Positions 20,047 through 51,984 of a stretch of 64,000 nucleotides of DNA are shown piece after piece. The translations under genes were made by a program, and so were the position numbers. A model generated the notes under the pieces. The model ran no database searches. It saw nothing but the letters and a program-made list of their open reading frames with translations, and was not told the origin of the DNA. The stretch spans positions 19,325,829 to 19,389,828 of the forward strand of contig OX387187.1 in the NCBI GenBank assembly GCA_947561395.2. The letters are read 5' to 3'. Source of the DNA: Buxus sempervirens (taxonomy: Eukaryota > Streptophyta > Magnoliopsida > Buxales > Buxaceae). The number at the start of each line of letters is the position of its first letter. The first letter of the stretch is position 1.

Positions 20047-20098
20047 ACAAGTGCAAAGGAGATTGCACCCTACAATTAATTAGGCTTGGGAAAACCTT

Positions 20099-20640: not shown

Positions 20641-21446
20641 TAGTGTTGTTCCTTCATATGCCAAATGGAAAAAATTGTTACAGAACAATGGATTTAGATT
20701 CGACAATTGGGTAGGCACTTCAAATCACAGAAATATTATCTCAATGAAATTTCCTTTTTGTGTTTTTTTTCCTAAATTACAAGTACTACTGATTTTATCA
20801 GACATTAAACAAATCTAATTTACAAAAAACACTCAATCCACTTCTCATCCAATTATCATTATTTTCCAACAAATCTCATGCCCATAGTTGCTTAGGCACA
20901 TAAATTATGAAAAGCTATCTATGATGTTGTTTGAACTCCATATATGACTTTCTTTTCAATAGATGAGGACTTTGAACGTTCAGAGGAAAGTTGGCTCCAC
21001 CAAATGCATACTCTTGAGGGTAAAATTATATATCTTGTATGACTCTTTGGATATTATTTTAATAGTTTTTCCAAAATCAAAATCATACAAAATTCAATTG
21101 GGATCTAAATCATGATATATAAATGCAATGTTACAATAATAATATAGGGCATAGTAGTTGATGTGAAGTATTCTTTTTAATTATTTTTTCTCTTTTTATC
21201 TTCTACCATAAACCAAATGCCATTCTTTATGTGGTTTACAGTTTATCAGGGATCATTCTGGGCATCATCATGAAAACTCTATAGAGGTGTAGGATCCCTA
21301 TTTTTCAGAAAGGGTTCTACATTAAGTTCATTCTTGTTTCAATCTCTACAATAGCTTAAAAATACGTTTTTAGCAGCTCAGAAATATTATCACAAGGTCT
21401 GTAATTTACATGTCTTTTTTAGTTACCAAATTCTCTTTCTCAGAGT

Positions 21447-22642
21447 ATGTATTGAGGATTCAACACAAACTATATAGAAATATCTAGAATATTCTTTTTG
21501 AATCTTTTAGAGATGTTCTAAGAATCTTCTAGAAATCTCTTACTCTAGTGATTTTCTAGAGGTGTTTTAAAGATCTTTTAGAGAACTAGATTTTCTAGAA
21601 ATCAAGATCTTTTAGAGAATTCTTCCATCTCCTTAGGTCCTCTATAAATAGGGAAAAGCCCACTAATGCATAAAACTTAAGAGAAGTAACTCAAGTGAGA
21701 GATATCTCAAGAGAGCCAACTCAAGTGAGTGACTCAAGTAAGAGACTAGTGTGAGTGCACGGTTCAGAGTCCCTTTGTGAGAATGTCAAGTGAGTGCTTT
21801 GAAAAAAAGTGGTGAATACATTATTGTGTACAAGTGTTTTTATAATAAGAGTTCATTTGTATGCAATTTCTCTCTTCGTGAAGCTCAACAACATGGTACC
21901 AGAGCTTGGCGGTCAGGGACTGTATTCGGAGGTGTTGTTAGGAAGGAGATTCTGTTGAGGTACAATCTGGGACTATGAATCTTGTTGGTTTGGGACCACA
22001 TATTTGCGAAGTTTTTTAAGGAGGTTACATTAAGTTGCAATGGTGGATCTTCAATTCATGGGAGTAATAGAGAAGCTCAACAACACAAATTATAGCACAT
22101 GGCAAACGTGCATGGAGTCCTATTTACAAGGCAAGACTTGTGGGAGATTGTTGGTGGTAGCGACACTATACCACCTCCTGCGGAGAATGTGGAAGGACTT
22201 CGGAAATGGCGAATTAAAGCCAGGAAAGCTATGTTTGCCATTAAGACACAATTGAGAAGGAAATGTTGGAGCATATTAGACATGCTACGACACCAAAGGA
22301 GGCTTGGGATGTATTTGCAACATGTTTCTCAAGGAAAAATGACACGAGGCTTCAATTCCTTGAAAGTGAATTAATGTCGACAACACATAGAGACTTCATA
22401 ATCAACCAATATTTTAATAAGGTAAAGCCTATTTGTCGCGAAATTTTTGAACTAGATCCTTCTACCAAAATAAATGAACAGCGTATGAGAAGTATCATTA
22501 TCCATGGGTTGAGACCCGAGTATGTGGGATTCATTACAACAGTACAGGGATGGCCAACTCGACTAACTCTTGAGGAGTTAGAAAATTTATTGGCCCACTG
22601 AGAAGCTTTGGCCAAGTAGTTGGTTAGGGTCTGTATACACAA
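21447..22642 (+). mobile_element. Ty1/copia retrotransposon, 5' LTR plus gag (fossil, 3' part missing)
   Basis: A putative 5' LTR (about 21,447-21,893, TATA-like CTATAAATAG at about 21,641) is followed by TGGTACCAGAGC (21,894-21,905), a close match to the initiator-Met tRNA primer site used by plant copia elements. From 22,040 the reading MVDLQFMGVIEKLNNTNYST and then KEAWDVFATCFSRKNDTRLQ, LRPEYVGFITTVQGWPTRL is copia gag (UBN2-type). Protease, integrase, RT and the 3' LTR are absent. It is broken, with few breaks in the surviving part. Confidence 0.85.
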
Positions 22643-22664
22643 ATTTTGCCTTTGAAATCAAACG

Positions 22665-23700
22665 GATCAGATGTGCCAATACAAATAAATTTGTATTTTT
22701 ATTAAAAATAATGTAGGGTACAGATCTCTGTGATTCCTTTGATTCTTTTCTTCACAAATCTTCGATTTGAGGGCTAAAATAGCTTGATCCCAAATTGGTC
22801 TTCGGCCTTCCTTAGCGAACTTCACGAAAGGTAGATAAAGTGGTAGATCTGGTGGATTCCACGTGTAGATATGCACTGGATTCGATGAGAAATCTTCGGC
22901 TTGATCTTCGGCTTTTGTGCTTGTTGAAGATCTCGGAAAACTTCTGTATTTGATGTAGATCTCTGGGCTGTATAGCGTGTCAGAGACAGGATATTTGAAT
23001 CTTCAGATCTTGAATGCAATTTTTAGTCTTCAAGTCTTCAATTCTTCAAGGCTTGTTGAATTTTCAGAACAGCAGCACTTCAACTCTTCAGAGATTTAGG
23101 TCTTCAGAACAGCAGAGCTTCAGTTCTTTAGGGCTTCAGTCTTCAGAATAGCAAAAATTTGCTTCTTTTCTTTTGTAGACTTCATTTGTCTTTTTCAATG
23201 AAGAAAGAACCCCCCCTATTTATAGATGTTGGGAAGATAAAGCTCTCTAGATTTAAAACTCTTAAGAGATTATCACAATTTGCAGATAATTCTCTATTTT
23301 TTGTGAAGAATTATCAATATTTAAAGATAATTCATTTATTTTGAAAGTTATCAAAATGATAATTCTTCAATGGGACCCACAAGCAATTTATTAGCTATCT
23401 TAGAGAGAAAATTCTATTTATTTTATTTAAAAAATTTATCTCTAAATGGGGTCCACACTTTTGTGAGATTTTTCCATGTGGCATTTTGTTAATCTCAAAA
23501 TTTCCCTTCCTACAAATGCCCCCTCGAGGCTTGTTTGCTTACACGACTTGTTGTGCTGTAAGTAAACAAGGCTTGACCTTGTATTTGTGAGGCTTGACTT
23601 TGTAGCACTTTGCCAATATTTGTTTGGTTGATTTTGATACCTTTGCACATGATTTGTTGTGCAAATATATATATATATATATATATATTTTCTTTTCTTC
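22665..23700 (-). mobile_element. LTR-like block, minus orientation (fossil)
   Basis: Contains a TATA-like box on the minus strand (complement of CTATTTATAG near 23,216), downstream CTTCAG-rich repeats (22,985-23,150), and an AT-run at 23,666-23,690. The layout resembles an LTR promoter and leader read right to left. No coding domain or confirmed ends were found. The abrupt switch from copia gag at about 22,650 suggests it was inserted there. Confidence 0.4.
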
Positions 23701-24035
23701 TATTTTTTAATTTTTTTTAATTGTATGTAAAACCATTGATTGGCCTCCATGTCTTCAACCAAGCGAGACCAAGGATCTCCACATACTTCATTGGAGAAAG
23801 AACCCATCTATAATACCACTTGATGGTCTTATAGTCTTGGACTGAAAGCAATCATATTTAAAGGTGTATGAGACCTCTTAAACAATGCTTGTGTTTTGCA
23901 TCAAGAAAACCCAACTAATTAAATTTGCTTTTGATTGAAATTAGACCCTCTGTAGGACCATTCAACCATATGTATGCTTTTGACACAAAGCAAACCCTAT
24001 CAAGGGTTCAGATTACATGTATTGAGCTTGTTGCA

Positions 24036-24573
24036 TGTTGGACCATGTGATGCTCACGTCAGCAATAGAATTTGTAACTCAAGACATCAATGTGGATGAT
24101 TATCACGTGGAATCCACATAAAAGAAAAAAGGACTGGCGAGCTATGAGTCTCAATTGAACTAGGACTGTATTTTCTCAATTACTCCCGATGAGTTAAAAG
24201 AAAGGATAAGTGAGAACCCAATTACACTTATAATGGAACTCTTAAGTCTTAATTAAACTAGGACTGTACTCTCTCCTTTTATATAAGACAAGCAACACTT
24301 TAGATTTCAATGCTTTCGTGGGATTCGAAGAAGAAGACGGCAGTTGTAGATTGAAGTCCATAAGGAGAGCCTGCTACAAGACGACGGAAGAAGTAGGTAC
24401 ATATTTCCAAACTTCAAGTTATATTTCATTTTATTCTCTTAAAACAAAACTTTGGAAAGAATCTTGCTCCTTTTTTTTTTTTTGATTCAAGGTTCTTGAG
24501 ATAGAAGCTTCGGGTTCGATGTAGCTTTGGTCCTATCTAGAAACATGAATCTTCAGCCTTTTTATTTCCAACA
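24036..24573 (+). mobile_element. Candidate solo LTR, copia-like (538 bp)
   Basis: The sequence starts TGTTGGA and ends TCCAACA, a 7-bp perfect inverted end, with a TATA-like TTTATATAAG at about 24,277 and a leader region after it. No primer site or gag follows and the flanking pentamers do not match clearly, so it is a plausible but unproven solo LTR. Confidence 0.45.
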
Positions 24574-25051
24574 GCACCATCCCTTTTATAGAATTCAACA
24601 ACTCCAATGATAGTCACACTGCTAAGGCCAAAACTGCAACATACCATAATTTCATTGCCCATGATTTCGTCTTAATCAGTAACAATTTAATCCAATGGCT
24701 GAAAACGTGGGGCAACAGAATTAAGAAAAATGTCCAAAGGTTTGAAGTCACAACACCAAGAATCTTCTTTTCTCATATTATCCACTTGCTTGCCTGCACG
24801 TCCATACAAGACCCCCCCTTTTTTTAGGAACTTGTTTAACAACATGTCATTAGGGACTTCCCCTTTTTGGTAATTCAACTCAATATAGAGTCCTTATTTA
24901 ATTGGGTTTAAGAGACCCCTTCCTTTTTTTTTTTTGTTTTTCACTTGAATCAGAAATTTATCACATGCTTCAAAACACGTCACCAGAGACTTTCCCCTTT
25001 TGGTAACTGAACTCAATATAGAATTCTTATTTAAGTGGGTTTAGGAGAACC

Positions 25052-25090
<39 letters not shown>
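24574..25090. other. Non-coding repeat-derived spacer with (TA)n tract
   Basis: No gene seen. Two related segments of about 65 bp, containing ACTTCCCCTTTTTGGTAATT and ACTTTCCCCTTTTGGTAACT (about 24,855 and 24,987), form a degenerate direct repeat. A (TA)n run covers about 25,056-25,095. Confidence 0.6.
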
Positions 25091-25098
<8 letters not shown>

Positions 25099-25099
25099 C

Positions 25100-27225
25100 A
25101 TGATTGAATCGATGTGAAGCTGTAAATTTGGTTCAGTCCTCGTTTAAATTGAATTAGTAGTGTTTATCTGATTTTCAGAAGAACAGAGCATGGTGCGCTA
25201 AGTACGGCTAACTGACAGGAAGTCAGCGGTACTCAGCCGTGGTTATAATTTTTGGATGGGCTGAGGGGCGCTGAGTGCTGCTAACTGACAGGAGGCCAGC
25301 GCACCATACAAAAATGCATACCAAGTGCGGCTAATCATTTTTGAGTTGATTTCTTGAGTTTAATTGTTCAAAGGCTTATCTAAGGGTTTAATTAAGATGT
25401 TAACATTAGTTTTAGATGATTTTGATCTATCGAATTTACATCAACAAATATTGAGAGAATTTAAAATGATTAAAGATTGGACTTATGGGGATTGTTAAGG
25501 GTCGCCAAGGAGGGCTGACCTTGGCTGAAGTTGGCGCCAAGCTCTTTGTCATTAACTATGTGTGGCTATTTTTGCTAAAGTAGTAATTGTTGATTAAACT
25601 CTTAACTGCTACTTCTTAAAACCTAAATAGGGTAGTAAATGCAGTGATCTAACCAAAGAGAATTGAAGTATGAATTAGATAGTGTATAGGTGCTTAAATG
25701 CATTGTAACTTCAAAGATAAAGGTTATGGGATCTTTCTTTAAGAGAAATTCACTCATGAAACTATATTGGAAGTATATTAGAGAATCATTACAGAATTAA
25801 GGTATCTAAAAGATGGACAGTTTAGGTTTCTCCCATTTAAGTAATCTAGTAGTCCTATAAGAAGGAATAGTGTTTTATTTTGGGAGAAGGGAAATAGGAT
25901 TAATTTTATGAAGAAAATCCATTGATTGAGATTAAAATGAGCAGAACCAATCTAAATTTATCAATAAGGCTAAATTCTGATTTCTATCATTTGAAGTTAC
26001 CGGTTTAATCAAGAGTGACAGTTTTTACTAAATTTTGAACTATAAAGGGAATTTTATACAATAAATTAGAAAAAGACTTTCAAACAAAGTATTTTGATTT
26101 AAGATGATTATTCGGATCCCTCCATGTACTTGGAGGATGTTTTTATTATTCTGGATGAGTTGATGGATATCTTACCTCCGTGTACTCGGGGATGCCCCAT
26201 GTACTTGGGATGTTGTGCCTCTGTGTATCTCAGAGATGCCCCGTGTACTCGAGACGATATATTGAGATTGGATTGAGTTGAGATTACCAAGATTTCAGTT
26301 TTGGCTTTTGCTTGAGTCTAGATGGCATAACTCAGTGTAGATCCACATTTGTCAAGTTAAGAGCTAGATAATGGAATAGATTGTACTTTGCTAGTCGTAA
26401 TACTTTGTTCACGCACGTGTTCCATCGTGCACTCGATGAGGCTTTCTCTATATCTGGTTGGCTGCGGCTATCTCTCATTTTATCGTGTACTCGGACTATG
26501 ATCGGATTAGTACATGCCAACCCATTGCTGTATCTGGATGGGTCCTTCCATAATAAGGCGATAATCGTGTAGCTCGGCTTTGCACCTAAGTCGGGAGGTA
26601 GCATAGTGGACATCGGTATTACCTAGTTAAGGGCAGTTTATTTCATGAGTCCACCGGGGACTTATTTCTAATGATTGCATGTTATGGATTTCTGTTATAT
26701 GATGGTTATTGGTATTTTCCTTTATCAGAATATTTGTTGGGATTTGATTACTTAGATTACTCGTGAAGGTTGGTTGTCGTTACTGATGCATGTTTTCCTA
26801 CTGAAGCATGTTTTTAGAACTGTTATAAATGTTTTGTTGCATGCATGTGGTACTTGCTGGGATATTCATATCTCATTACGTTTTGTTTTGTTTTCAGATC
26901 CTGGTGATGACGATCTTGGCGGGGTTGAGTCAGTCGCTGACTTCCCTGAGTACAAGGAAGAAGACTATTTTGTTGAGTGATTTTTAGAGAGATAAATTTG
27001 ATTGTTGATTACTTTGTTATAGTGAGTAAACTTTGAGTTGTAATTGTTTTATTTCATTTTGGATTGGTGATTGGGGTAATAGTAAACTCTGATATTGTTA
27101 AATTGATTTTAATAAATGCAATTTCATGTCTTCTTACACTTTAATATAGATCCTGCAGTTTATTTACCTAACACTTGGGGTGCGAGTTGCGGTTCCGCTA
27201 CGTAACTCGTATCAGGGGCGTTACA
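25100..27225 (+). mobile_element. Long LTR remnant, plus orientation, ending GGGGCGTTACA (fossil)
   Basis: Ends with GGGGCGTTACA at 27,225, identical to the LTR terminus at 37,572. It shares the module TTTTGTTTTCAGAT at 26,886-26,899, followed by a short GC-richer block. It includes a minisatellite of GTGTACTCGGGGATGCCCC units (about 26,117-26,260), a feature seen inside long plant gypsy LTRs. No internal coding region was seen. The left boundary is uncertain and there is no matching target duplication. Confidence 0.55.
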
Positions 27226-28089: not shown

Positions 28090-28962
28090 TTATTGCATGC
28101 AGTGTTTGAGCAGTGAAGATTTCCTTGTCTTCGAGCGAGGGGGCGTCTTTTATACATATTGGTTTCTTTTGCTATCATTTGGCACGTGTGGAGGGAAAGA
28201 AACCAACATATTTTTTAGGGCAGATTTTCACTTCTAGGGGAAGAAATCGAAGCTATATGTTTACTGTCTTTAGTTGGGCTTCGATTCAGGACCTGTTTTG
28301 GGGGATTGTGATAGCTGATATTCTAAGGGATTGGCATTCTATATGTTTCTCCTTCACTGTGACTGTTCGGAGGCAAGTCTCTTGGATCCCTCAACATACT
28401 AGGATTCTCAAACTAAACTTTGATGGATGTTCTTTCGGGAACACAAGGCGATATGGGATTTGGGGTGTTTTGCGAGATTCAGAGGGTCGAATCATTTTTG
28501 CTTTCTGTGGTCCAATTGTGATTGGGGATTCTACTAGAGTAGAGCTTCTATCTATTGTGACTGGTTTACAGCTAGCTCATTGAGATGGTTTTCGAGACTT
28601 TACAGTGGAGGCTGATTTTGCCACCATTGTGTTATGGATTCAGTCTGTCCAAACCTCTCTTTAGCGACAGTCTCACTCAGTGGTTTTGGCTTGTTTCTTG
28701 GTGCATGAGTTGAATGTCTAATTCAGCCATATACCTGGAGTGACAAAAGCATTTGCAAATAGCTTAGCTAAGGCAGGAGGCATTACATCATTAATATGGG
28801 AGGGGTCTCATGTATCTTCTTTTCTTGGGAAGTCTAGGGACTTTGTTCTTCTTGCATGATTTCTTAGTGCTACTCCCTCTTTGGGGTTTGCTACCATGTA
28901 TCCTTGTCTCCCTTTTACCTTAATATACATTCTCATTATCTTTTCAAAAAGAAAAAAAAATG
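28090..28962 (+). mobile_element. LINE 3' end with RVT_3 RNase H domain
   Basis: Translation gives VSWIPQHTRILKLNFDGCSF, YGIWGVLRDSEGRIIFAF, RVELLSIVTGLQLAH and, after a stop, FTVEADFATIVLW and SHIPGVTKAFANSLAKAGG. This is an RVT_3 RNase H domain (LNFDG...E...D), as found at the 3' end of plant LINEs. A non-coding tail ending in AAAAAGAAAAAAAAATG follows. Stops within the domain make it inactive. The segment from about 28,556 onward is duplicated at 52,380-52,773 together with the eIF3i promoter, so it was in place before the gene duplicated. Confidence 0.85.
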
Positions 28963-29199
28963 TAATTTGGGTTTTTGGCTGATTTGATTTAATTGAAACT
29001 TCAAACCGAACAAATCCGATTTAGTGCTTTTTGAACCAAATCCAAACCGAAATCATTAAAAGCCAACGCAAACCCACCCAATGTTAGTTTTGGTCAAGCA
29101 GTTCGGGTTTGCACAACGCAAATTGCACTGCGCGTTGCATCGTCTCTTTTGTAAATGATTTGAAGCCTAGCCCTAAATTGACAGTAACCCAATAACCTC
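28963..29199 (+). promoter_or_regulatory. Ancestral eIF3i promoter segment, split from its gene by an LTR
   Basis: About 240 bp (from TTTGGGTTTTTGG to AACCCAATAACCTC) recur just upstream of the exon 1 copies at 51,985-52,190 and 52,774-53,010, where they are contiguous with the 5' UTR. Here the same stretch is cut at 29,199 and the rest of the 5' UTR resumes at about 37,573. It is therefore the displaced native promoter of eIF3i copy 1. Confidence 0.85.
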
Positions 29200-32100
29200 T
29201 GTAAGACCTTGGATTTTTAGATAATTTTTATTTATTTATTGTAAAATTAAATAAACTCTTTGGTTTGGTTTATTTTGGGTTATTTGATTTGAGTTTTGGA
29301 ATCTTTGGATTGGTTCACTTCAAGTGAACCGGATTAAGTGATTTCATTCAGTTTCGTTGGTTTAGGTGTAATGGGTTAAACTGAATTATTTTAAGTGAGG
29401 AAAAGAAATTATTTTAGTTGGGTCTAGTTTAGTTGGTTTAAGTGAAATTGGTTCAATTGAATTATTTTACTCGAAGAGAAAATTATTTTAGTGGAGTTGG
29501 TTTAATGGGATTAATTGGGTTATAGTTGGGTTCGTTAGTGAGGGTTCTGTTCAGTTCATTTAAATTGGTTTAAGGGGTTTAATTTGAAATGAGAACCCGT
29601 GAGTTCTCATTTTTCTTTTTTCACTCGACGAGGGTTAGAGAGAAAAGAGGAAACGACTGCTGGGAAGAGGAAGAAAGAAGAAGAAGAAGGAGACGAGAGA
29701 GGACCTTTCCAGCTTGGATTCGTGCGTTCACAAGTAAGTAGCACCTTTCAATTGCAATTGCAATTTCCTTTTTCGTTTTTAATTTTGGTTTGTTGGTTTT
29801 GCGCCCCTGTTCATGATTTCTCTAAATCTGTTCTTTACTCTTGTCTTGCTCTTTTAAGTTCTCAGTCATTAGAACCAAGAGGATTTTTGACGATCGGGTT
29901 TATTTGTTCTGTTCTGGTTCTGAATTCCTATTATTTCTTGTTGAATGGTGTGTCGATGAGCTAGTTTTGTGTTGGAAATCTATGCGTATATGTTTATTTT
30001 TTGTAAATGCGATTTATAGTTGGAATTCTGTTGGTTTTGTGCCAGCCCCTTTTATTTGTTGTAATCTGCTTGTTTAAGCAGTCTATTAGTAGAGGGGTAA
30101 ATGGGGTTGTCATTTGTAATCTGCTTGTTTAGGACATGAGATTCTTAGGTTGTCTTTACTAGTTCGTATAATTGTTTTGTGCCTTTCCTCTTCCTCTGCT
30201 CCTTTTCTTTCTATATTTATTGCTTGAGTGCATTAAACTGTTTCTTGTGAAGATTGGTTTCGAACCTATGTGGGGATTTGATACTTTTTATTTAGACAAT
30301 CCTCAAGTAACTTTTTTTCATTTTGACCATTTGGATTTTATTTATCATATTGTTTTCTTTATTTTAAAGAAAATTATTCGGTTGGTTTAAATATTTAATC
30401 CATATCTATCTTGGATTTCCAATTGGAGTGGAGAATCTCTTCTCTTTGTAAATCTTATAATTATTTTTTAGTCCAATGCTTAACGAATAAGGGAAGTTGG
30501 AAATTCTCTTTTGCAAATTTACTAATGTTCTGTTTTGCTTCCTTGGTATTTTGTTTAATCTTCATCAATTATTTCGGCTTCCCTGCTTATAACCCATGAT
30601 TGAGGTCAATTCACCATTGTGGTTCCATTGTTCATCATTATTCTCTCTTGGATGCTCTCTCCTTTCTTTTTTTTGATGCGCGTGTCTGTAGATATTAATG
30701 CATATAAGTTTACCAATTACTTATGGTCACTTTTTGTTGAATTCAATCTATTTAATAAATCAACTAGTTTAACACCTGAAGATCGATTGGGGTTCTTTAA
30801 ATGTTCTGATGGTGCATTATGCAGCTACTGCTTTTATTCTTTATTTTTGTATACCTTGTGAATACTATCAATGCAGTAAACAAGATAAAGCCTTTAGTTT
30901 TTATACTGCTGAACACATGAACATTTCGTATCTAAACTGCTCAATCTGTTCTTTCAACCTTTCCATTATCGCCCCCAAAGAACAAAACTCTACCATTAGT
31001 AAAATTGCATTAGTATATATGACATAAATTGTAATATTTTTGTGGTACTGTGAGGCACATGATGGGTGATATAGAATGTTAGATCTTCCACACTACAAAA
31101 AAAAAGTGATATAACGACACTAATATAAGGGCACTTATATAAAAGTACCCTTATAAGTGCCTTAATACGGCATTTTGTATGCAAATGCCGTTATAAAACA
31201 ATTTATTATGGCATTTTTCTAAAATGCCATTATAAAATGATTTATTACGGCATTTTTTTAGAAAAATGCCACTATAAAACGATTTATTACGGCATTTTTC
31301 TAGTGAGTGCTGCTATAAAATAATTTATTACGACATTTTCTAATTGAATGCCCCTATAAAACATTTTGTTACGGCATTTTCTAAGAAATGCCATTATAAA
31401 GCAAATTATTACAGCATTTCTTATAAAAAATGCCTCTATAAAACAAATTATTACGGCACTTCTCCATCAAATGCCGCTAAACAATAATTCATAAAATATT
31501 TTATTATGATACTTTATTATAAAATGCCGCTATAAAATTTAAAATAATTATTAAAAATAAAGTATATTTTTGGGAAACTTTGTTTTAGTGATGTTTTTTT
31601 AAGAATAATTTAGATTTAGTCATGCAATTATTTGAAATTAGATTTGTTCTTAATTATTTAAGCTAAACTTAATTAATTGCCAATTAGGAAGATTTGGGAT
31701 GATTGAATATGAATTAGTTTTAAAAATACCCCAAAAAACAAATTTTCCGTTTTTTTTTTTTCAATCTTTGCTGCGAACGGCCTAAACAGTTTCAATATCC
31801 ATTTTGAACCTCAAGGACGACCTAAATCAATATCGATTTTGAATCTCAAGCGTGGGCAGCTGTGAAGATCGGAGCACCGTCGTTGTTTCGACTCTCCCAC
31901 TTCCACAACGCCAAATCTATAGGTTTCCCAGGTAATTCTGTTCTTCGTTGATCTGATTTTCTATTTTATTGGTTTCACATTGCAATTAGATTGGTGCTTT
32001 GTAGATCGCGGTGATCGATTGGGCGTTCTCTCATTTGAGATTCGGAATCCTCCTTCTCGATTACTTGAATCGAAAGATATTAATTAAAGGATTTGGCCAG

Positions 32101-33622
32101 CGCAATCCTTATATTGCATGCTGTGTGGTTGTGGTAGCTGGTAGGTGTTGGCCGACGCCTATGAGATCAACTCAGAGCATGTTCGACGCCTATGAGTTAT
32201 CCTAGATTAAGGTAAAAATGGGAAAAAAAAAAAAATCAAAATATAGAATGTTCGACGCTTCTGTCCGAATTAGAACCTAAGAGAGAGTCTCGGACTCGTA
32301 CTTCGACTCGAAGAAACACTACAAAATGCGGATCGGTTCCTGTAGAGGCTTTGTTTTGTTTTTAGGGTTTCGTTAAGTGCTTCTGTATGGGATTCTCTTT
32401 TCCTTTCTAAATCTCTAATAGTTAATTGCTGTCTGTTTTTCATGTGAATTCCAGCACTATTAACTGAATTTGTTCCTGTCATGTCTTCTTTTTGCTCTTT
32501 AATTATTATATTGATCAAAAAAAAGAAAACAATACGAAGACAAATAGATGATTTTTTCCTTTGTGTGTGTGTTGGATGGGTGGTTCAGCAACCTACAGTC
32601 TTTGTACAATAGCATCTCTTATATTATATATTTTATTGCCATTTAGAAGAAAAATCAATAAAATTTACCACATAAAGAGAGGCTGTGTTTTTTCCTAAAA
32701 AAATTAATCTAGGATAATTAGGGCTAAAATAGTCATTTATGTTAGAATTAAAATTGAGGGCTAAGGCAGTACTTTAAGTTGGAAGTAATATGAAAGTTAA
32801 AGTAGTTAAGTTATAATGAACTATAATAGTCCTTCCTTTAAAATTATTGAAGGTTAAAAAAGTCTTTGATTTAGGATTAAATTGGCAGGGCTGTACAGCT
32901 AAGTTTTCTCCAGGGGATATTTTTGTAATATTGCTTAAACCTAATAAAAAAAACCCTCCAATCAACATGAGTTAACACTTATTGAAAACTCTTTTGTTGC
33001 TGCTAAGGTGCATGGATAAGAGTCTATTCACGTAGAGCCTCTTAAATCGCATTTGAAATACATAATCCTGAGTTTCCATTACAGGCAATCGAATAAGATA
33101 TCAAGCATCAAAATCAAAGTTTTAAGAGTTTAATATCTAAAAATCTAGTGCATTATAATACAGATGTGAAGATAATAAACCAATCTATTATGGTTTTTTT
33201 CCCTTTTTCCTTGTGTTCTCAACTTTCAGACATAATCTCTGCAGTAGCACCCCCTAGTTTCTGTTTCGAAAATTATTTGGAAAGGCCTTCACAGAAATGA
33301 AAAGAGAATCCTACCATACCCATGTAGCAGATCTGACTATCTGCCTCTCAGAATATCAAATGTTAAAAACAACAGTTCTTAATGTCTAATCAAGAACTGT
33401 TGAATAGAAAGGATTATTCTTGTGCCATTTGGATTTGCAGAACTGTTGTAAAATCTTTTATGAACATACCCCTTGTTGGAGCAGTTTTTCAAGATCAGGT
33501 TTGAAGCTATTAATTTCTCAGAATTTAGAGTTACATATTAGCCTTATTTTCAGTAACCTTTTATCTGTTGAGCATATTAGTGTCTATAATCTTTGCATTT
33601 TATATGAGCTATAGCTAGTTGG

Positions 33623-33664
<42 letters not shown>
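33623..33664. repeat. (CT)n(CA)n microsatellite
   Basis: Compound dinucleotide run of CT units followed by CA units, inside the CACTA element. Confidence 0.95.
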
Positions 33665-34112
33665 TGCACTTATACACCCACATACATGCACAAACACACA
33701 CAAATATATATAATATAACCTGTTGGATTCAACCGGAACCTAACCTGTCACAATAGTTGGTGAATATATCAAGTTGGTGGGCTGGGTCAGGTTTCTTTTG
33801 TGTATGCTTGTGTGATAGTATTATTATTTTTCCTTTTTGGCCAATTCTAATCTCCCAGCGGCATATTTATCGTAAATACTGGTTAAATGGGTCACATGGA
33901 GAATCTGTTGGAATATGAACCTGGCTTGGTTTTTAAAGCACAAATTAAAACCGAGTGGTTTACTGTTTTGTTTTGTTTACACCAGATTTCGAGCTTCTTT
34001 GCTAACACCAAAAATTCTTCATACGGGTTGACTTAGAGGTAGGCTACTTCTTTCTATATAAATGTATCAGTTACTTCATCTGGGTTCTCAGTTCTCTTTG
34101 TGCCACTGGTAA

Positions 34113-34301
34113 GTTGTGGTTGCTGGTGGGCATGCATTTGTTGGTTTGAGGTACTACTTCGACCTCTCTCTACAGGTTTTGGTTGCTGCTGGGCATGTAT
34201 TTGTTGATTTGAGGTACTACTTCAACCTCTCTCTGCAGGTTGTGGTCGCTGTCGAGCATGTACTTGTTGATTTGAGGTACTTCTTCGACCTCTCTCTGCA
34301 G
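34113..34301 (+). repeat. 63-bp tandem repeat, three full units, each ending in a splice-acceptor-like CTCTCTGCAG
   Basis: Units start at 34,113, 34,176 and 34,239, with a partial fourth at 34,302. Each begins GTTGTGGT(T/C)GCTG and ends CCTCTCTCT(A/G)CAG. Length 63 keeps a frame open, repeating a 21-residue motif around DLRYYFDLSLQ. Every unit provides a pyrimidine tract plus AG, so the array is three acceptor sites in series. It lies in the CACTA element upstream of the captured exon. Confidence 0.9.
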
Positions 34302-34925
34302 GTTGTGGTCGCTGCCAGAACTGTTAGGTAACCAGTTCTAAGCTCTCTTCCTAATTTTCATATGCTTGGAATTGCTTTTTCAATAGAACGTGCAGGGGAT
34401 GAAGTTGCTCTTAACTTGCCTTCTTTTTCTTCTGTTGAGGCTAGTCTTAGATCCTTGGATGTATTCAGTCAATTTTAAATTTATTTTTTTATTTTACCTC
34501 TTATTGTCTTTTCTGCTTATTTATGTCAACACGTTTTTCTCAGTTTATCACCATATGATTAAATTATTTGTCCCATTTGATTTCATTTATTATATCATGG
34601 AATATTCAATGACTTATCTTGTAGAAGTGTCCTTTCAGCTTGCGTGCATTCCCTAGACATATAAATGGTAGAAGTGCCTCTTAGCTTTAAGCGATTTGGC
34701 TCTAATTCTTTGGCTACATTCAAATTGCTATCCCCTTTATGTTTTATTGATTTCAAATAGCAAAGTGGCTGCTTTTGAAAATCACTTGGTCCTCATGTGT
34801 GATAATCTTAAGGTTTTGCTACTTCACAATCACAATTATAGTCTTCAATTTGCTCCCCTTTTGGTTTAAAATGATTCGCTTCCCTAGTTGCGTATTGTCT
34901 GGATATTTGATTTTCAGATTAATGA

Positions 34926-35243
<318 letters not shown>

Positions 35244-37652
35244 TGAGCAGGTTTCCTACTTAAGTTTTGAAAATTTCAGATATTTTCAATTCTGATGGTG
35301 ACTGGCAAATAGTTGAAGCATAAAGCACTTTGCGGTTGTTGGGAATTGATATTACTAAGTAAATCTGGTTGCTAGCATGGGAAATTAAATGTGGGGGGGT
35401 GGGGTGGGGTGAATTGGTAAATTAACTGGGGGTGGGGTGGGGTGAATTGGTAAATTAATTGGGGGTGGGTGGTAAATTAAATTTTTTTTAAATTAATATA
35501 CTTTTAGTGGCATTTAGTGGTTGCCGCTAAAGCCTTCAAGTGTTGATAAACTTTATTACGACACTTTAAAAAATGCCATAATAGCTTATATTTTTACAGC
35601 ATTTTTAAATGCCGTAAAAAATCACTTTATAGCGGCATATTTCAAAGTGTTGTTATAAGTTGTCGCTATAACATAATGCAACACCACTTGAAACGGCATT
35701 TTATCAAAATGCCGTTATATGTTATAACGGCATTTTTCTATATTATAAGGGCACTTTTGAAGTGCCGTAATAAAAAGACTTTTTTTGTAGTGCCAGTCAA
35801 GACGATGTTATTTGCATGTGTGTGTGTAGGGCCTGAACTGCTGATATGAGCAAAAAATGGTTGCCTGTGAATCATAGTGTTATATTTTATACTACCTATA
35901 TACTCATAACACTTTTGTGAAATTGTTAGCTTGTTAAGAGGTTTAAAAGTATATACAAAGAGGTTATTGGTGGTAAGAATGACATGGAATTGCAGGAAGA
36001 AGATCAATTCACAATTTGAAGCTTAAAAGCAGAATCCATTTTGTTATAGGGTTTTAAACCCCATAAGATGCAATGGCTTGCGAGGGCTTAGAATCTTTGT
36101 GTGAAAATTCATATTAGTAGTCTAAAATTTAGTTTAGGGTGATTGTAGTTGAATGGGAGTGGTAGTAGGTAATCTGGACCCCAAATTAGGAAATTAAAAA
36201 TCACCAAAGTGAAGCCATCAGCGAGTTGGATTTTGTGGCTGGTTGTAACCACCTATAGTAAAACGGCTATAACTCTCTATAGGAAGCTTCAAATTACGCA
36301 CTGTTTGTTGTGTTAGAAACTAGACTCATAGATCTTTCCAGTGGTATATGGCATAAATATCCATAAATTATAGCTTAGATCAGGTTTAGCATTTAATTAA
36401 CGAGTTAGAACCTGATCTGCAGAGTAAACAATATCTGTAAACCAATCCTGGTAAAACGACTACAACTTTCTCTAGGAAACTTCGAATTGCATACCGTTTG
36501 ATGCGTTGGGAACTAGACTTGTAGAGCTTTCCAACGATGTATGGTATGCATACGAATTCCTTATAGATTAGATCAGGTCTAACCCATTTTGAGAGTCAAA
36601 AGAATTGATCTGCATGGTATTGATGATTCTTTGGAAACATAGTGGTATAATTTTGGGCTATTTAATCAGATATTTGGAAATTAGGTAATATTAAGTTGAG
36701 CGATGGTTTCAATGTGGATATTTTGTGTTGGTGTTATCCAAGCATGAAATTGGTTTGTATTGAGTTTAATGGGCATAGAAATGGTTATGGATCCATGGTC
36801 ATTCTAGATAGTGTATTAGTGTTGGTTTGTCGAGTTAACACCCCGGGCCACATTCGCATTTCCGCCGTGTGGGATCGGTGAGGTTTTCCTGTGGGATAGA
36901 GGGCTGTGGCAACCCATTTCCGCCGTGTGGGATTGGTGAGGTCTCCTTGTGTGTGTGAGTATTATTATTACTGTTGATTAGGTTGTTTCGTGCCAACCCA
37001 TGCGTGTGTGCTCCACTCGGGTGAAGACCGTGTGCGGCTTCGACCCTCGAGTCGTGAGATGGCAAACTTGGTTAAGGGTGGTTATCTTGACTTACAGACA
37101 CGCTAATCCACGAGTTCTGCTATCAGTTGTTGATTATGATTAATACTCGGCTTTGATTGACATGTAGATTTATTCTAGTTGTCTTGTATCTATTGATATA
37201 TTATACTGGGATTATTCGGTTTATGCGCTTTATTTTCTCTGATGCATATTTTAATCTGATTTATGTCTTAGAACTATTAGAAATGATTATGAGCATGCAT
37301 GGGCTACTTACTGCAATATTCGTATCTCAGTCGATTTTGTTTTGTTTTCAGATCTCGGAAAGGGCGATATCGGCGGGTAAACGTTTAGATCATGTGAGTA
37401 TCAGAATATAGATAGGATATTTAGTTCGTGTTGGGTTTTAGTTGCCTCTGGTTATATATTTAATTGTGCTTCCATGTTTCTTTTACTTTGATTTTGAGAT
37501 TTTGGGTGGAAAGGTAACCCTTTGGTGACGGGTTACGGTTTAGTTCACGTAACTCGGATCCGGGGCGTTACAGTCTTTCTCTCTCCTTCACTCCTATTTT
37601 GTTCCAAGCTCGAAGCCTTAGAAGGTTTTTGTTGTTGTACGTAGCTAACAGG

Positions 37653-40600
37653 ATGAGACCGATCTTGATGAAAGGCCATGAGAGGCCACTGACATATCTC
37701 AAGTACAACAGAGAAGGTGATCTTCTCTTCTCCTGTGCCAAAGACCACAACCCTACCGTGTGGTTTGCAGATAATGGCGAACGCCTTGGCACTTACAGAG
37801 GCCACAATGGTGCTGTCTGGTGTTGCGACGTAGCAAGTGAGCATTTTCCTCTACACATCTTCTCCTTCATCTCTCTCCTCCTTGTTGGTTGTTAGTTTTA
37901 TGGGGCTAGATGTTCTATTATTTTCCATATCAATATAGCAATAGTTTTTAGAAGACGAGGAGACGATTTAGAAGATGCTTGAATCTGGTTTTGTAGAACA
38001 AATATGCCCAAATTGGACTGGTGTGAGCGAACTTATGTAGAAAAATGCTTGCCCATGATTTTGATAGTTCGTGCTGATGGAACATGATACTCCTTGCGGA
38101 CTGCAGTTAAAATTTATTTTTCCCTTTTTATTTAAATAGGAAGAACGCATAGATTTGATTCATAGGTGTCAGTAAGAAACAGGTATTTGATATCATCAGG
38201 ATTGAGTGGAAGATGTCATTGAGAATCATCTGCCTGCTACATGGTAGAATAAATTGAACAACTTGTTTTTGAATTTTGAGTTTTTAGGAGATTGTGCATG
38301 TGAATTTGAGGAGAAACTTCAAGAGAAATTTCATTCTTTTTTTTTTGTTGATAATTGATGAAAATCAAGTTTCATTATGAAGAGGTTATGGAATTTCAGT
38401 ATAAGGAAAAAGATATTTGCGTCCTTCCTCTCTCCTCTTTATGCGATTTATTTGCTGTCTATTAAAAAAAAAAAATTCTTATATCTGATACATATGCTTT
38501 GTTTAGAAAGTAAGATATTAAGAATTTTAGGATATGTGCATGATTAATGTATGCTAGTACGTTTATGGACTATATAGTCACAATGCATAATGCCTGTCCA
38601 ATTATTCCTACCTTGAATTTTAAAAACCATAAAATTTGAAGCTTTTGAGTGATCCTTAATCTCTAACTGCACATTTAATTTTTCTTAGTAAGTTCTCTCT
38701 CTCTCTCTCTCTAAGGATATCTATCTATCTATTTGTCTGTCTATCTGTCTTTCTTACTGCTAGATTAAATGGTTAAGTTTGTCTAGATGGATTTTATATG
38801 AGAATCATAGTTGTATCATGTCAAAAACAAACAACTTATATTCTAATTGCTGTTTTTCCAGTTTCCAATTTCCTTTCCAGGTTAATTAACAAAGAAAAGA
38901 ATCAATTTATCGCCCTGTTCTGTGGTTGAGAATTAGGACTACAACTACTGATGTAGTGATAAGGAGAGTTGTGATATTCTTTTCTCACTTCTTGAGAATA
39001 TTTATGGATGAGAATTTTTTATGTGTCTGGCAAAAGATGTGATTGTCCCAAAATTTTGATGCTTTCTAACGTTCTTAACTTTTCCGTGCTTGCTTGCAAA
39101 TTTTGGTAAATGATCCACCAGATTATTAACTATGTTTGTAATTTTCAGGGGATTCCATGCGCCTCATAACTGGCAGTGCAGATCAGACAGTAAAATTGTG
39201 GAATGTTCAGACTGGGGCTCAGCTTTTTTCATTCAACTTTGATGCTCCTGCTAGATCTGTTGACTTTTCAGTTGGGGATAGACTCACTGTAATCACGACT
39301 GATCCATTTATGGAAGTCCAACCATCAATCCATGTGAAACGCATTGCAAGAGATCCTAGCGAACGTATAGTTTTTCCTTTCTCAATTTCTCGTCTTTATA
39401 TTTATTTTATGATATAAATATGAACTACAATGTACCAGTTCACCTGTTATTTTGGTTCTGTTACTCATGGTTTTTTATTTATTTTTTATGAGTTAAGGTG
39501 TAATCTTCAGGCTAGTGCAGTTGCTTCTGGTTGGTGCTAGATATAGCATCTTTTTATTGCCGGATGCTTATGAAGCTGCAATTGTGGCTCATCTCTAAGT
39601 GTCCTGAGGATGTTTACCACCATGCTGGTTGGAATCTTCAAAATGGCTACCAATTCATATGAAACTGTAGGCAAGTAGTTTTATTTGATTGATGATGCTG
39701 AGTTTCTAGATATCGTGGAGAGTGTCCATGGAATTTAAGCTATTAATAACATTTGTTATTGGCTTTCTACCATTTGTGACCATTTATTTGTTTCCACATG
39801 ATGAGATGAAGTGATGGGCTCTATAATGATGTGATCCTTCTTGAAAGATGCTGAGTCGAAGAAATGGCCCGGGAAAGGAGCTCGTAAAATGTGTAACAAA
39901 CTGAAATGATCTTGCAATCCAACAGGAATCATGAGGTTTAGAAGAATGGGGATTTTTAAATATTTGTTTTGTAGACAGGTTCATCCAGGTGGAACCTAAT
40001 AAGGATATACCTTTGTGCATAATTGGTGACTTAGTGTTATTAGATTTTTACATGAACAAAGAGGAAAGTTTCTATCACAGGGAGCATAGGGGAGTTTTTG
40101 GATCTTTTGAGCAATTCTGACCTTGTTGATTATCCTCTATGAGGGTGAGAATTCAGATGGTTGTATATGCAGGAAGGACCAGTTTTATGTAGTTGGATGG
40201 GATTTTAATTTCATTAGGTTGGGATATTCTTTTGTGTATAATTCCTTTACGCTGTACCAATACCTCTATCTGACTGCATACGTACTTTGATCTCCATAGA
40301 GCATATTAGAAGGAATTGTCATTCCTCATTCTTTTTTGTTAGTATATGGCTAAGGTATCCAAACTTTAGGGACGTGGTGAGGACCTAGTAGGGGATTGAT
40401 CAGGTTGGTTTAGGTTCATGCACTCACTAAAGTTTGTGAAATATAAAATCAATAGATGGAATAAAGAGTTTATGGTGTGGTATTAAAAAATGTTTAAATT
40501 ATTTGGTGGAATGGATGATCTAGATAGGGAGAAGGAAAATTTGGACTTAGAGCTAGATTATGAAATTTTAATAGCTAGACTTTTGAGATTTCACTGTCTG

Positions 40601-43600
40601 AGATCATAGAAAGCGCCTGGAGTGGAGGAAAGGTTCCCTAACTAAACTTCATAAAGTTAAATTGAACCTGGAAACAAGGATGCATGTTGAGCAGGGATGA
40701 TGATGGAGATATGGAGTTGAAGAATATATGATTTTTGTTTGGAAGGAACCTAGACTTGAGAGATTTCACTATGCAAGATCATGGAAAGCACCTGGAGTGG
40801 AGGAAAGGTTCCCTGTAGTTGAACTTCATAAAATAAACTGAACCTGGAAACAAGGATGCATGTTAAGCAGGGATGATGATGGAAACATGGAGTTGAAGAA
40901 TAGAGGATTTTTGTTTGGAGGGAAGGCATCTATCCATTATTTTTTTGAAGCTTCACCTTTATGAGTTTAGGAATTATAGTTTTTTTCATTTTGAAATTTA
41001 AAATTTTAGATTAGTCCCTCCTTTATTGTGGAGCATAAATTGACTATTTCCTCCTTTATTTTCCTGTCACTTATTTCGCATTTTATATATTTTGTGGGCT
41101 TATAATCCATTGAGAGCCTGTTAGACTTTGTAAAACTTGAAATGCCCTTATGAGTTGTCTTTAGTGGTAGATATCAGTAAGGGCCATTCCAATAGCAAGT
41201 CCCTTTTATGGTTCCTCCTGTGTATACACTCTTGTAGTGCATAGGTCTACAAGGCTTCTTTAACTTCTGGAGGTTGATGTACACATTTTAATGAGAGTGT
41301 GCAAGATATAATATGTTATGTGTAAATGGAATACTCAAGGAGGTGCCCCTTGTCCTGATTATAAAGTTTTGATGATGTTGCTTCCAAGAGCTGGGACTAA
41401 TTTTCAATAAACATATCTTGCCTTTGCCATGGCAAGGAGTTTCCTAAAGGCAGTCCGCCCATGGATTAGTTGAGTTTTGCTTGGTAAGCATCTGCGAATA
41501 TCTAATGTGGAAGAATGCCCTTACGGTGACAAGTAGTTGCTTACATATTAAGGGTGAGGGTGGTGTTGCCTTGGGGGCATACCCAAGGTCTGTGATCAGT
41601 TCAAGCTTTGAATAATATTGAAGGAGGAGAGGAAGCAAGTATCCCTTCAACGAAGCAACAGGATATTTCTGTTGCTGCCATTCTGTCATCTCCAGCTGCC
41701 ATCATAGTGGCATGTAGGTAAGGTTTTGTATGATATGATTAGATAGCATGCCCTACAAGCCTGGCCTACTATGTGTTGGGTAGCCTGCTGGGTTGTACTG
41801 CCCTACAAAAAAAAGAAGTTTTGTATGAGGGTGGATTGAAGGAGAATTAGAGTTTTGCTGGTGTTTTAAGGGGTGGAAGTTTGAGAGTCATCATAATGAT
41901 TTTGAGGATTTTTTTTTTTGTTGGGATGAAGCTCAAAATGAGTGATGGTTTGAAAATTTGTTTCTGGGAGTATAATTGTTGTGCTGTGCGCAGAAATACA
42001 AGGTTGTACATCTTTACATAGGGTCTATTATATTATGTCACTAGTTTGTTGCAAATGGATCATTATTGTACATTGTTGCATATAGACTTCCATATTGTCA
42101 TGTTTCAATTTTTTAGTTACTTTCTATGGTTGGACCCTTAAGAAATTTTTTTTTTTAAAATTTGGTTTTACTGCAACGTGCATGTTTATGTGACTTGGAT
42201 TTCTAATTTTTATCAACCTGCCCATTGGTACTGAATTTTAGTGTTTCTATCAATTTTATCATCCACAGGGTTACTTATATTGATGATATTCCATGTGAAC
42301 TTATGTGGTACTCTGCCAGTGAGGAATTCAGAGCTTTTTCAGTGATGGTGGTGTATTATTTGATTGGAAAAATCATTTGCGAAGTTACTAAATCAATAAT
42401 TTCATTACTTACAGAGACTGGTGAATCTGTGCTTGTTATCAAGGGAATTCAAGGGAGAATAAATAGAGCTGTATGGGGACCCTTGAACAGGACTATCATA
42501 AGTGCTGGTGAAGATGCAGTAATTCGTGTATGGGATTCTGAGGTAAGTAGCTGCACTTTATATTTTCTTGCTGGTCGTGTTGTTTATAGAGATAGGTAAG
42601 CAGCTCAAATGGATATGAAATTTAGTATTACAAGGATCACTGTATGGGCTTTATCTGGAGCTTTGATGCATTGCAATGGTACTCTACCTTGTGCATATTA
42701 TTTTTTTGCTCTTTGGCATTGCCCTTTTTAGATAATTAGCTTGGATTCAGTTTTTGGTTGTCTCTTTAATTTGCAGACAGGGAAGTTGCTTAATGAATCT
42801 GATAAAGAAAGTGGCCATCATAAAACAATTACTTCACTCTGTAAATCTGCAGATGGTTCACATTTCCTCTCTGGATCCCTTGATAAATCTGCCAAGGTAC
42901 AGCATCTTACTACTTTTCCTCTTCTATAATATAATATTTTTTCTGTAATTTTCAATAACTAGTTGAGCTTTCTTTGCTCATCTCATTGGCTACCCTTCAA
43001 ATTCTGTTAGCTTTGGGACATCAGATCATTGAAACTTATCAAGACCTATGTGACCGAACGCCCAGTCAATGCTGTTGCCATGTCTCCACTTCTGGATCAC
43101 GTATGTTCTCTTGCAACTATAATATTTATGTTTAAATTCATTCTTATCTTCACTGCTTTCATTCTCTGTACAAACTTTGTTATGGTTTTGTTTAAGGCAT
43201 GGACTTGCATTTCATCTAGTTGTATTATTAATAAAAAACTTCTATGGTAGATGTGCTCTGACTTTTGGCTCAAGCAGTTTTCTCCTAATACAATATAACA
43301 ATAATAAAAGAAAAAAAAATCAAGAATAATAATGTTGGATCTTGATGCTGAAGTCTTTATCTAGATCAAGTGGAAATAGGAATTTAGGAATATCTCTCCC
43401 ATCGATGTAATTCGGGACTTATCTACTGTTGCTGTTCTGGACTAGTTTTGGGTTGTTAGTATGGTTATTTTTTTTTTCTTGCTTTTTGGGTGCCCACTGT
43501 TCATGGGTCCCTTGTACTTCTGTTTTCTATGCTCTTTAATACATTCTCTTATTAACCATAAAAAAAAGGTGGAAATAGGAAGAGGAAAGTTTAACTATGT

Positions 43601-46600
43601 GTATTTTTTTTCCTTTCTAGGCTTTTGGATTTTGTTAATAGCTTCCTTCTATCATTTTTGCTGACAAATTTCTTATGATGTACTTAAAACTGGCATTTTA
43701 TAGCCATGTGTTTTGAGAACTAAAAGCTTTACCCCCTTTGAATCAAATGACCATGTACAATTGCCCCTTTTGAATTGATCACTAAGACTGTATTTTGTTT
43801 TGTCAGTTTTGTCAGTTGTCGTGCTTCTAGGATTTGATTTCCTACATAGGTTACTAGGAGTCAGCTTCTAGGGCAATATTGAAGAAAAATTTGAAACCAT
43901 GCAAGAGTAAGGTCAATGGAGCTGAATGGACAACTTATATAAAAGGAATGCTTTGATGTGGTTGGTTACAAACACACATGCATTGGTAAATGGAAATTAT
44001 TTATTACAGGCTCGATATTGAGTCTGATGACTGGACTGATTCTAGAATCCAACTCTATAATTAGCTTCATGATCTGATTCAAAGAATCCATATGGGATTA
44101 TGAAATTGGATTTTGAAATCCCAATGAAATTCCCTTGTGTTTTTTTCTGAAAGATGGCTAGATCTTGTGGGTTGACTTTTAAGCACCACCTCTGGTAAAG
44201 GTGTTGGCAGCAACAGCCTGTCTAATACATGAATCCTGATGAACATGTTAGGTATTTTTTTATTGATGAGTAAGATTCTAATGAGGTTTCCTTGTAAAAA
44301 GGAAACATTAAAAATATTGTGGGAGTTTGACCCAAAGTGCGAGGAGTGAGGATATCTAAATGGTCTCGAGTTACAATAATTTTATCTCATTTTGATTACA
44401 TTGTTTCCTTGAGGATTTGAGGCCCAGATCTTGCCAATATTGTTTTGTATAATTTTAATGAGATGCTTATGGTCATGTACTTGGCAGTGTTGTTACAAAT
44501 GTGGATTCTTTGGCCAGATTAACTCCTGGCCTTCATTGTACGCAGTCAACGCAGGGAAGCCAACCAAATGGCCTTCCCTTCTATAGATATCTCCATTATA
44601 TCAATGAATATTTGTTCATTTGTTTGTGTCCAAGTAGCTGCCTCAATTTCGTCACCATCAATATCTGTAGCCAGGGCTGCTGCCATCTGAATGAAAATCA
44701 TCAAAGATATAATTTGACATATCCCCTTAACAAGAATAAAGCAACAATAGCAAGGAAGTATCTCTCTTACAGATTTAGCATTTTGGCTAAATCTTTCACG
44801 TAAATTTTGTTTCAAATCAATACAAATTACACTTACTCTAAAAAAAAATAAAAAAACATGGAGAAGAATTCTGGCTACACTTGAACATGAAAGAAACAAT
44901 AGAGACACAGGTCAATTAGCACCAATACTATCATCTACACGTGCTCCAACTACAGCCATTAGTTGTAAAGTTTTTGTCTTAAGGCTCATAGAGAGAAGTA
45001 GAACTACCGGACTTGTAAAGGTGACACTGAAGGGGGGAGGTGGAGCCACTTGGGGATTGATTTATCATGGTAACATGTGCGGTTAAAATTTTAATTTAAG
45101 GTTCATGTACAGAACAGTCTTGGCATAAAAAGAATCACAAGGGACGGTACAGGTGAGGACAGTGACATTTTTGAATATGGGCTGTTGCTTATCATGAATT
45201 GGGAGTTTGGGACCCCCAACTTGTCACTGTTTTATCATTACTGTCATTTGTGCAATTTTATCAACCCCAATAGCACTTGGAGATGGTAACTTATTTTTAC
45301 TTTCATTTGCTCTGCTGTATAAATCAGAGCTATCAAGATCATCTAAAGAAGCTTATTGAGCTGGAGAGTCTGACAGGAGGGTATGGATTTCTGAGAAGTG
45401 AGAACTAATCTCTGTTACTAGAAAACAAGAGAAACTGATTTTGGAGGTACTCAGTGACTAAAAGGGCAAAAATAAATAAATTATGTATTTTTTTTAAGGG
45501 GATGGTGGTGGGGTTTCTGTTGCCTCGCAGTGGCATCCAAAGTCCCCACTTAATAAACTTTCACCCCTGTTGTGAGAAAAGGGGTACATTAAATGGTTGC
45601 AGTTGAACAACTATAAAGATTCATTACCAATGCTAAACTTGTTACTCGAGGATCTGAAACCCAATACTCATTAACCTTAAATGGGTCAATTCTGAAAATC
45701 TTGTAAAGGGTAGGAGAGGATTGTTTGGCACATGAAAACTCAAATTAGGTATGTGGTCTAGTTATGACAGGGGCATTTGAACCTAATACAATTACAAGAA
45801 AGTAATGACTTGACCATTCATTTGTTATTTAAAAGATGAGCAACATGGGGTAATCAATAAATTAGGTGGGATCAATTTAAAAAAAAAAAGGAAAATATAA
45901 GGACTATGAATATCTCAACAAGGATTCCTCATCCCAGTAGGACTGAGCCAGTGCAGCCCATAATGTCATCTCAACATCTTGAATAATTATGGGTCTCACT
46001 TGCTGAATAACTCCAATTTGAGAAAAATGTTGCAACCAATCCCATCAGAAGGACCAAGTACAACTAAACTCAAGATATGGCATCAATGATAATGGCTTTC
46101 CATTTCTAAAGTGGCAAGTAAGGCTGGAGGCATAGGACCGGTACTGGTGGATGAGACTATTGAGCCCCCTGCATTTGATTAGTTTAATGTCATTCATTAT
46201 GTGGAGCTTATATTTAGTCAGTTGGGGAGTGACAGGTGAAGAGGGTGAGAGCTTGTAAAAGCATGTTTGCGATATCAGTATTTTTTTATGTTATTAACTA
46301 CATTGTATCAATAAGTAGCAACAAAGTTATAGTTTGTTTATATAATTTTCTTTTACTTATCACATCTAAAGATGCTTTGTTGTGAAAACTGTTGAAGGTG
46401 AAATCTATATGAAATTGTAAGCTTAAGCAAAACTAAATAGCGAGAATTTGGGTCAGACCTTTCACTTGTGGACTGAAGCTCCATAGTCTAACAGATGGTT
46501 ACCAAGTAATTTACATGGGCGCACTTTACTGAGGCACACTTGGATGACTATTTCAGAACTCCATGTTTATGGGGCACATAAAACCTATTTTGGCAAGTGA

Positions 46601-51976: not shown

Positions 51977-51984
51977 CACTACAC

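Follow-up and report, generated by a model that had tools for sequence, protein, structure and literature searches.

Copy 1 of the eIF3i gene in Buxus sempervirens has been split from its native upstream region by transposon insertion, and its expression may by now rely on signals that the transposon supplies. The 64-kb stretch of DNA analysed here (contig OX387187.1, positions 19,325,829 to 19,389,828 of the forward strand; hereafter the window, with coordinates counted from its first base) carries a broken tandem array of three eIF3i copies and, to judge from its genes and transposons, is probably nuclear DNA. Copy 1, the sole intact eIF3i within the window, is interrupted by an 8,373-bp insert (29200-37572) whose right edge is 80 nt away from the ATG (37653), and this insert is a solo long terminal repeat (LTR) into which a CACTA transposon is nested. 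The anatomy of the split, the nested insert and the intact gene is described with high confidence. The dependence of copy 1 on LTR signals is plausible, and the further step, that its mRNA carries an LTR-supplied 5' leader, is tentative and is given somewhat less than even weight.

The features on which this description is built are as follows.

28963-29194, + strand: displaced native upstream region of copy 1, its presumed proximal promoter, contiguous with the 5' untranslated region (5' UTR) in copies 2 and 3
29195-29199, + strand: putative 5-bp target-site duplication, left (ACCTC)
29200-31090, + strand: solo LTR, left part, beginning TGTAAGACC
31088-31090, + strand: CCA target duplication of the CACTA, left
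31091-35792, + strand: nested CACTA of 4,702 bp, with CACTACAAAAAAA at both ends in inverted orientation and subterminal repeats
34959-35150, + strand: CACTA-borne gene fragment resembling 'Ripening-induced protein' 4ida (phmmer E 3e-21, 64 residues)
35793-35795, + strand: CCA target duplication of the CACTA, right
35796-37572, + strand: solo LTR, right part, finishing GGGGCGTTACA, related to the LTR end at 26575-27225
37573-37577, + strand: putative target-site duplication, right (GTCTT)
51986-52362, + strand: copy 2, of which only an upstream region, the 5' UTR and a portion of exon 1 are left, followed by LINE-like (long interspersed nuclear element-like) DNA
52379-61628, + strand: copy 3, a pseudogene with no LTR at the corresponding site

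The sister copies make the split apparent, as the upstream region and the 5' UTR are contiguous in both of them and interrupted only in copy 1. The copy 1 flanks 28563-29200 and 37578 onward correspond to contiguous DNA of copy 3 (52379-53015; 53015 on), and 28997-29200 and 37574-37749 correspond to contiguous DNA of copy 2 (51986-52189; 52187-52362). A preliminary description of this DNA had placed the end of the LTR about 80 bp before the ATG and had given the separation as 8.4 kb, and both statements agree with these alignments. The flanks tile the sister copies in register with a 5-bp overlap, and the two halves of the putative duplication, ACCTC and GTCTT, mismatch at 3 of 5 sites, which is improbable at the private substitution rate of the copy 1 flanks (probability 0.0006 to 0.005). 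One possible source of the mismatches is recombination between two different elements, which would have left the solo LTR.

The ends of the insert are of the LTR type, reading TGTAA...TTACA, that is, TG...CA with a short inverted repeat, and similar 3' ends stand at 27225 and, on the minus strand, at 20099. Such TGTA..TACA ends are absent from the table of the commonest LTR ends in one paper (PMC11656987). Since the left and right parts of the insert have no similarity to each other at E 1e-3, it is a solo LTR and not an element with two LTRs, and a full element is ruled out on the same ground. The preliminary description took the whole insert for one long LTR of 8.4 kb, a view that is ruled out by the CACTA nested inside, which has terminal inverted repeats and perfect target duplications (CCA/CCA); once the CACTA and one CCA are removed, the net length of the LTR is 3,668 bp. 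The sense orientation that had been assigned to the LTR is favoured by two related LTR ends and by the direction of the motifs, with no internal region present to anchor it. No internal coding region was recognised in the insert, in searches that did not include gag-pol profiles. In addition, viral contigs yielded 0 relatives of the LTR end and 0 of eIF3i, and the tRNA and Rfam scans gave 0 matches.

CACTA (En/Spm-type) transposons that carry gene fragments are known, and the present element resembles them in its CACTA ends, its 3-bp target duplication and the host-type gene fragment inside it. It differs in being nested in a solo LTR upstream of eIF3i, and in that no transposase was matched in the four CACTA open reading frames (ORFs) scanned. 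The entry 4ida is presumably a strawberry reductase, and the ORF that encloses the 4ida-like fragment has no Pfam or NCBIfam match.

The gene downstream of the insert is complete. It has 8 exons and 981 nt from ATG to stop, encodes 326 amino acids, and has GT at 7 of 7 donors and AG at 7 of 7 acceptors.

37653-37836, + strand: eIF3i copy 1 exon 1 (ATG)
39149-39364, + strand: eIF3i copy 1 exon 2
42415-42542, + strand: eIF3i copy 1 exon 3
42777-42896, + strand: eIF3i copy 1 exon 4
43011-43100, + strand: eIF3i copy 1 exon 5
48655-48741, + strand: eIF3i copy 1 exon 6
48846-48925, + strand: eIF3i copy 1 exon 7
49450-49525, + strand: eIF3i copy 1 exon 8 (stop)

The product matches 6ybt across residues 1-324 of 326 (E 1.4e-97) and 6gsm across residues 1-325 (E 3.3e-80), which we take to be the human and the yeast protein, respectively, and it is 78% identical to a presumed Arabidopsis eIF3i sequence used as reference. 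Between copies 1 (28.6-49.5 kb) and 3 (52.4-61.6 kb) the identity is about 94% in a 7-kb stretch and 97% in one of 1.5 kb, and across exons 1-7 they differ by 9 synonymous and 23 amino-acid-changing codons, two of which are stops in copy 3. At these 23 differences the residue of this Arabidopsis reference is found in copy 1 at 18, in copy 3 at 3 and in neither at 2 (sign test p 0.0015); the corresponding numbers against the human PDB sequence, in an alignment read by eye, are 13, 1 and 9 (p 0.0018). Because the reference residues mostly sit in copy 1, this copy has been constrained at the protein level since the duplication, while copy 3 decayed. Furthermore, the start codon of copy 3 has changed from ATG to TTG, there are two internal stops, the acceptors of exons 3 and 5 read AA instead of AG, and no match to exon 8 was found from 52300 to the window end; these defects rule out copy 3 as a functional substitute. 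Copy 2 is truncated inside exon 1, where it runs into LINE-like DNA. The earlier statement that copy 1 is the only intact eIF3i thus holds for the window alone.

The divergence between copies 1 and 3 is uneven, ranging from 0.4% to 7.4% per 500 bp (38078-40082, 42592-43091, 47655-49185), and exon 6 with its edges is identical over 127 bp; gene conversion between the two copies could account for the unevenness. Another insertion is seen in intron 5, where about 3.1 kb of copy 1 (44549-47654) stands against 38 bp in copy 3.

The displaced native upstream region is short: bordered by a LINE-like 3' end on one side and by the insertion on the other, it measures only about 237 bp. In its 198-bp comparable part (28997-29194) the private changes number 10 in copy 1, 12 in copy 2 and 10 in copy 3, which are small numbers, and the corresponding counts over 172 columns of leader and exon 1 are 5, 7 and 11, with one site that differs in all three. 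The displaced promoter of copy 1 has therefore changed at the pace of the dead copies, without sign of constraint, which suits a promoter that is no longer needed.

28110-28960, + strand: LINE-like 3' end adjoining copy 1 on its upstream side, with a reverse-transcriptase-like stretch and an A-rich tail

The ORF at 28110-28580 within this LINE-like stretch matches Pfam RVT_3 with E 2.5e-4 and 21.4 bits, slightly short of the cut-off (21.6). Copies 1 and 3 are preceded by the same LINE-like 3' end (28563-28960; 52363-52760), and exon 1 of copy 2 breaks directly into this 3' end, a layout that points to unequal recombination in the array.

How copy 1 may be transcribed depends on a small set of candidate signals in and beside the insert (a slash marks a splice junction).

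29610-29622, + strand: pyrimidine run TTTTTCTTTTTTC, putative LTR promoter or start zone; the insert has several other pyrimidine runs
29620-29733, + strand: purine-rich leader candidate, without ATG, ending at the donor CAA/GTAAGT (29734)
37339-37353, + strand: acceptor-like motif GTTTTGTTTTCAG/AT; an exon beginning there would have 37352 as its first base, 301 nt from the ATG
37574-37589, + strand: pyrimidine tract TCTTTCTCTCTCCTTC, 16 nt, retained beside the gene; possible residual start site; copies 2 and 3 have pyrimidine tracts in the corresponding position

In the sequence of events that we propose, an LTR retrotransposon would have struck copy 1 at or just upstream of its start region, leaving a 3.67-kb solo LTR that the CACTA entered afterwards. 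Copy 1 would have remained expressed, with RNA starting most likely in the LTR promoter and leader zone at about 29.6 kb and the displaced native promoter, just upstream, serving as a less frequent start. Splicing would then excise the LTR interior together with the CACTA, as a single long intron of the 5' UTR with its acceptor at 37352, and the result would be a leader of about 301 nt of LTR and native sequence with two very short upstream ORFs, predicted at 1 and 5 codons, before the ATG. The leader candidate is 80% purine in its first 70 nt, and in all 64 kb similarly purine-rich stretches number 4 on the + strand (the leader included) and 6 on the other. At 37352 the acceptor-like TTGTTTTGTTTTCAG/AT scores 8.76, within the range of the acceptors of eIF3i itself (1.8-9.2). 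As a start at about 29.6 kb lies about 8 kb from the ATG, it needs an intron nearly as long as the one that the native promoter needs, and the LTR acceptor could serve both starts.

The acceptor-like motif belongs to a block that is shared by three LTR ends. The window has the 15-mer GTTTTGTTTTCAGAT at three sites and no others, each of them at an LTR end.

37339-37353, + strand: 15-mer site, 221 nt from the CAG of the block to the LTR 3' end at 37572
26885-26899, + strand: 15-mer site, about 328 nt from the CAG to the LTR end at 27225
20526-20540, minus strand: 15-mer site, 429 nt from the CAG to the LTR end at 20099

The LTR end that stops at 27225, on the same strand, is 64% identical to the LTR of copy 1 over 355 columns. 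In 500 shuffles the longest word shared three ways was 10, and a word of 15 was found in 0 of 500. The block may mark a spliced transcript or another function built into the LTR lineage. A bolder form of this idea, which we regard as improbable, is that in this lineage the LTR itself comes equipped with a promoter, an untranslated first exon, an intron and a conserved acceptor, and that a solo copy took over, as a cassette, the expression of the sole functional eIF3i of the species. A pyrimidine-tract start would thereby have been replaced by a long LTR leader with short upstream ORFs, changing the control of the gene by growth signals.

Reading frames follow the block in both relatives. In the LTR ending at 27225 the stretch after it (26898-26977) reads DPGDDDLGGVESVADFPEYKEEDYFVE and then a stop, and in the minus-strand LTR near 20.5 kb SDYKEEDFYLQ follows in another frame. 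The DPGDDDLGGVESVADFPEYKEEDYFVE reading has no NCBIfam match, and these frames may be what is left of a small, LTR-encoded acidic exon.

Several observations weigh against an LTR-supplied leader. A purine-rich leader was looked for beside the other two LTR ends as well, with 0 windows obtained in 20000-26500 (+ strand) and 20100-26500 (other strand), and the 20 best TATA matches include none in 29200-29733. The splice sites were scored with matrices and with 300 shuffles each, and their numbers are close to those expected: donors of at least 8.38 number 1 in the left part against a shuffle mean of 0.83 and 0 in the right part against 1.25, and acceptors of at least 8.76 number 1 in the right part against 0.55 and 0 in the left part against 0.97. 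Splice-site strength alone, which was not above chance in the shuffles, was consequently rejected as evidence. T makes up 44% of 29734-31090, which follows the leader, 45% of the DNA that precedes the leader and 35% of 35796-37351, as compared with 36-39% in eIF3i introns 1 and 2; because the DNA both before and after the leader is T-rich, composition says little, and T-richness was discarded as an intron mark. Stronger donors (5) and acceptors (4) sit inside the CACTA, the insert has seven AATAAA words, and both could hinder transcription through the insert. The minus-strand LTR end that stops at 20099 matches the LTR of copy 1 weakly (67% of 103 columns, E 4e-5), the shuffle control of the 15-mer takes no account of the shared ancestry of the LTRs, and the left LTR part contains a T-rich stretch that aligns similarly well to that same part of the minus-strand LTR (E 1.8e-4). 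The 15-mer is for these reasons the best-kept block and not proof of splicing. Moreover, the LTR may have arrived at any point of the period in which copy 1 was constrained, or after it. Two further candidates were set aside: a TATA-like stretch near 37453, spotted by eye, falls outside the 20 best TATA matches and is not relied on, and a copy-1-specific change immediately ahead of the ATG creates an AG (acceptor score 6.05) with no other support for its use.

Three other accounts of copy 1 have to be weighed against an LTR-supplied leader. It is unlikely, but to an appreciable degree conceivable, that copy 1 has been weak or silent since the insertion and that another eIF3i locus supplies the protein, in which case the constraint would predate the insertion. 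The neighbourhood is rich in transposable elements (TEs), the view is of one window only, two sister copies are already dead, and the LTR is not datable from this window, all of which fit a silent gene; the ORF and the splice sites of copy 1 are nevertheless fully intact, copy 3 holds the reference residue at only 3 of 23 differences, and if the 3 mismatches of the target duplication represent decay, the insertion is not recent. Rather unlikely in our judgement is a start at the retained pyrimidine tract (37574-37589), with 80 nt of native leader and the LTR end serving as upstream promoter DNA, which would need no long intron. The tract and the native leader are placed as in copies 2 and 3, and leaders from 37485 or 37580 would be without an upstream ATG. 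Such a start has to contend with the absence of any of the 20 best TATA matches beyond 36359 and with a native upstream region that lies 8.4 kb away, and the tract is the native start only as a candidate.

The displaced native promoter might also drive copy 1, with the whole insert spliced out almost at its edges, although we find this distinctly improbable. Suitable sites exist, TCT/GTAAGA at 29201 and TTACAG/ before 37574, in which the GTAAGA consists of the first bases of the LTR and the CAG of its last bases and one host base, so that splicing there would nearly restore the native leader. These sites are weak (2.19 and 2.93), though two sites of eIF3i itself are similarly low (donor 2.73, acceptor 1.82); in addition, a stronger acceptor lies 222 nt upstream of the right edge, and the native promoter is without constraint in copy 1. 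The preliminary description had held that the promoter of copy 1 was replaced, and that, unless the native promoter works through a very long intron, the gene must use LTR-derived initiation. Replacement fits the split, the protein constraint and the unconstrained displaced promoter. LTR-derived initiation does not follow from it, because a residual start at the pyrimidine tract or a silent copy 1 would also be compatible, and the choice between two starts was drawn too narrowly, as an LTR start needs a long intron too and a pyrimidine-tract start needs none.

If the only working eIF3i gene of a plant indeed ran on an LTR leader, an essential and ubiquitous gene would have survived the exchange of its core promoter. 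The dead sister copies, about 14 kb away, offer natural controls with which the promoter swap could be dated and tested, and a recurring acceptor-like motif at LTR ends would explain how such LTRs pass leaders to downstream genes.

Plants have a number of known promoters of transposon origin, chiefly at pigment, stress and tissue-specific genes. TE-gene transcripts are reported from about 3,000 Arabidopsis gene loci, many of them with TE start or end sites in the UTRs (PMC10241880). As in the chimeric transcripts described there, a 5' transposon can supply a promoter, a first exon or splice sites; unlike them, the LTR described here separates the promoter from the gene instead of adding an alternative start, the gene encodes a core translation factor, and the case is known from DNA. 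LTR retrotransposons inserted in plant promoters can change expression, as Gret1 does at grape VvMYBA1 (PMC10249860). Retrotransposon DNA occupies the promoter region in both cases, but the grape gene is a pigment regulator whose expression is suppressed, whereas a housekeeping protein stayed constrained here. Among the literature matches listed, no report of an LTR-driven eIF3i gene was found. A role of plant eIF3i as a 5' terminal oligopyrimidine (5'TOP) mRNA is unsupported, as the main text of an Arabidopsis TOR-LARP1 paper (PMC7584452) has 0 occurrences of 'eIF3', and a literature query that combined LARP1, eIF3, Arabidopsis and '5 TOP' gave 0 matches.

Two observations concern other parts of the window. 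Upstream of copy 2 (51700-51985) there is an open stretch beginning NRSAISSLSTTTNIHLAQLPFISFDHGLP, which we took to resemble a glycosyltransferase N-terminal fragment; a PDB sequence search gave no match. Near the window start, positions 857-6267 form a diverged inverted repeat with 65-74% identity in four pieces, and an ORF in this region (4927-5814) reads like what we presume to be a LINE reverse transcriptase.

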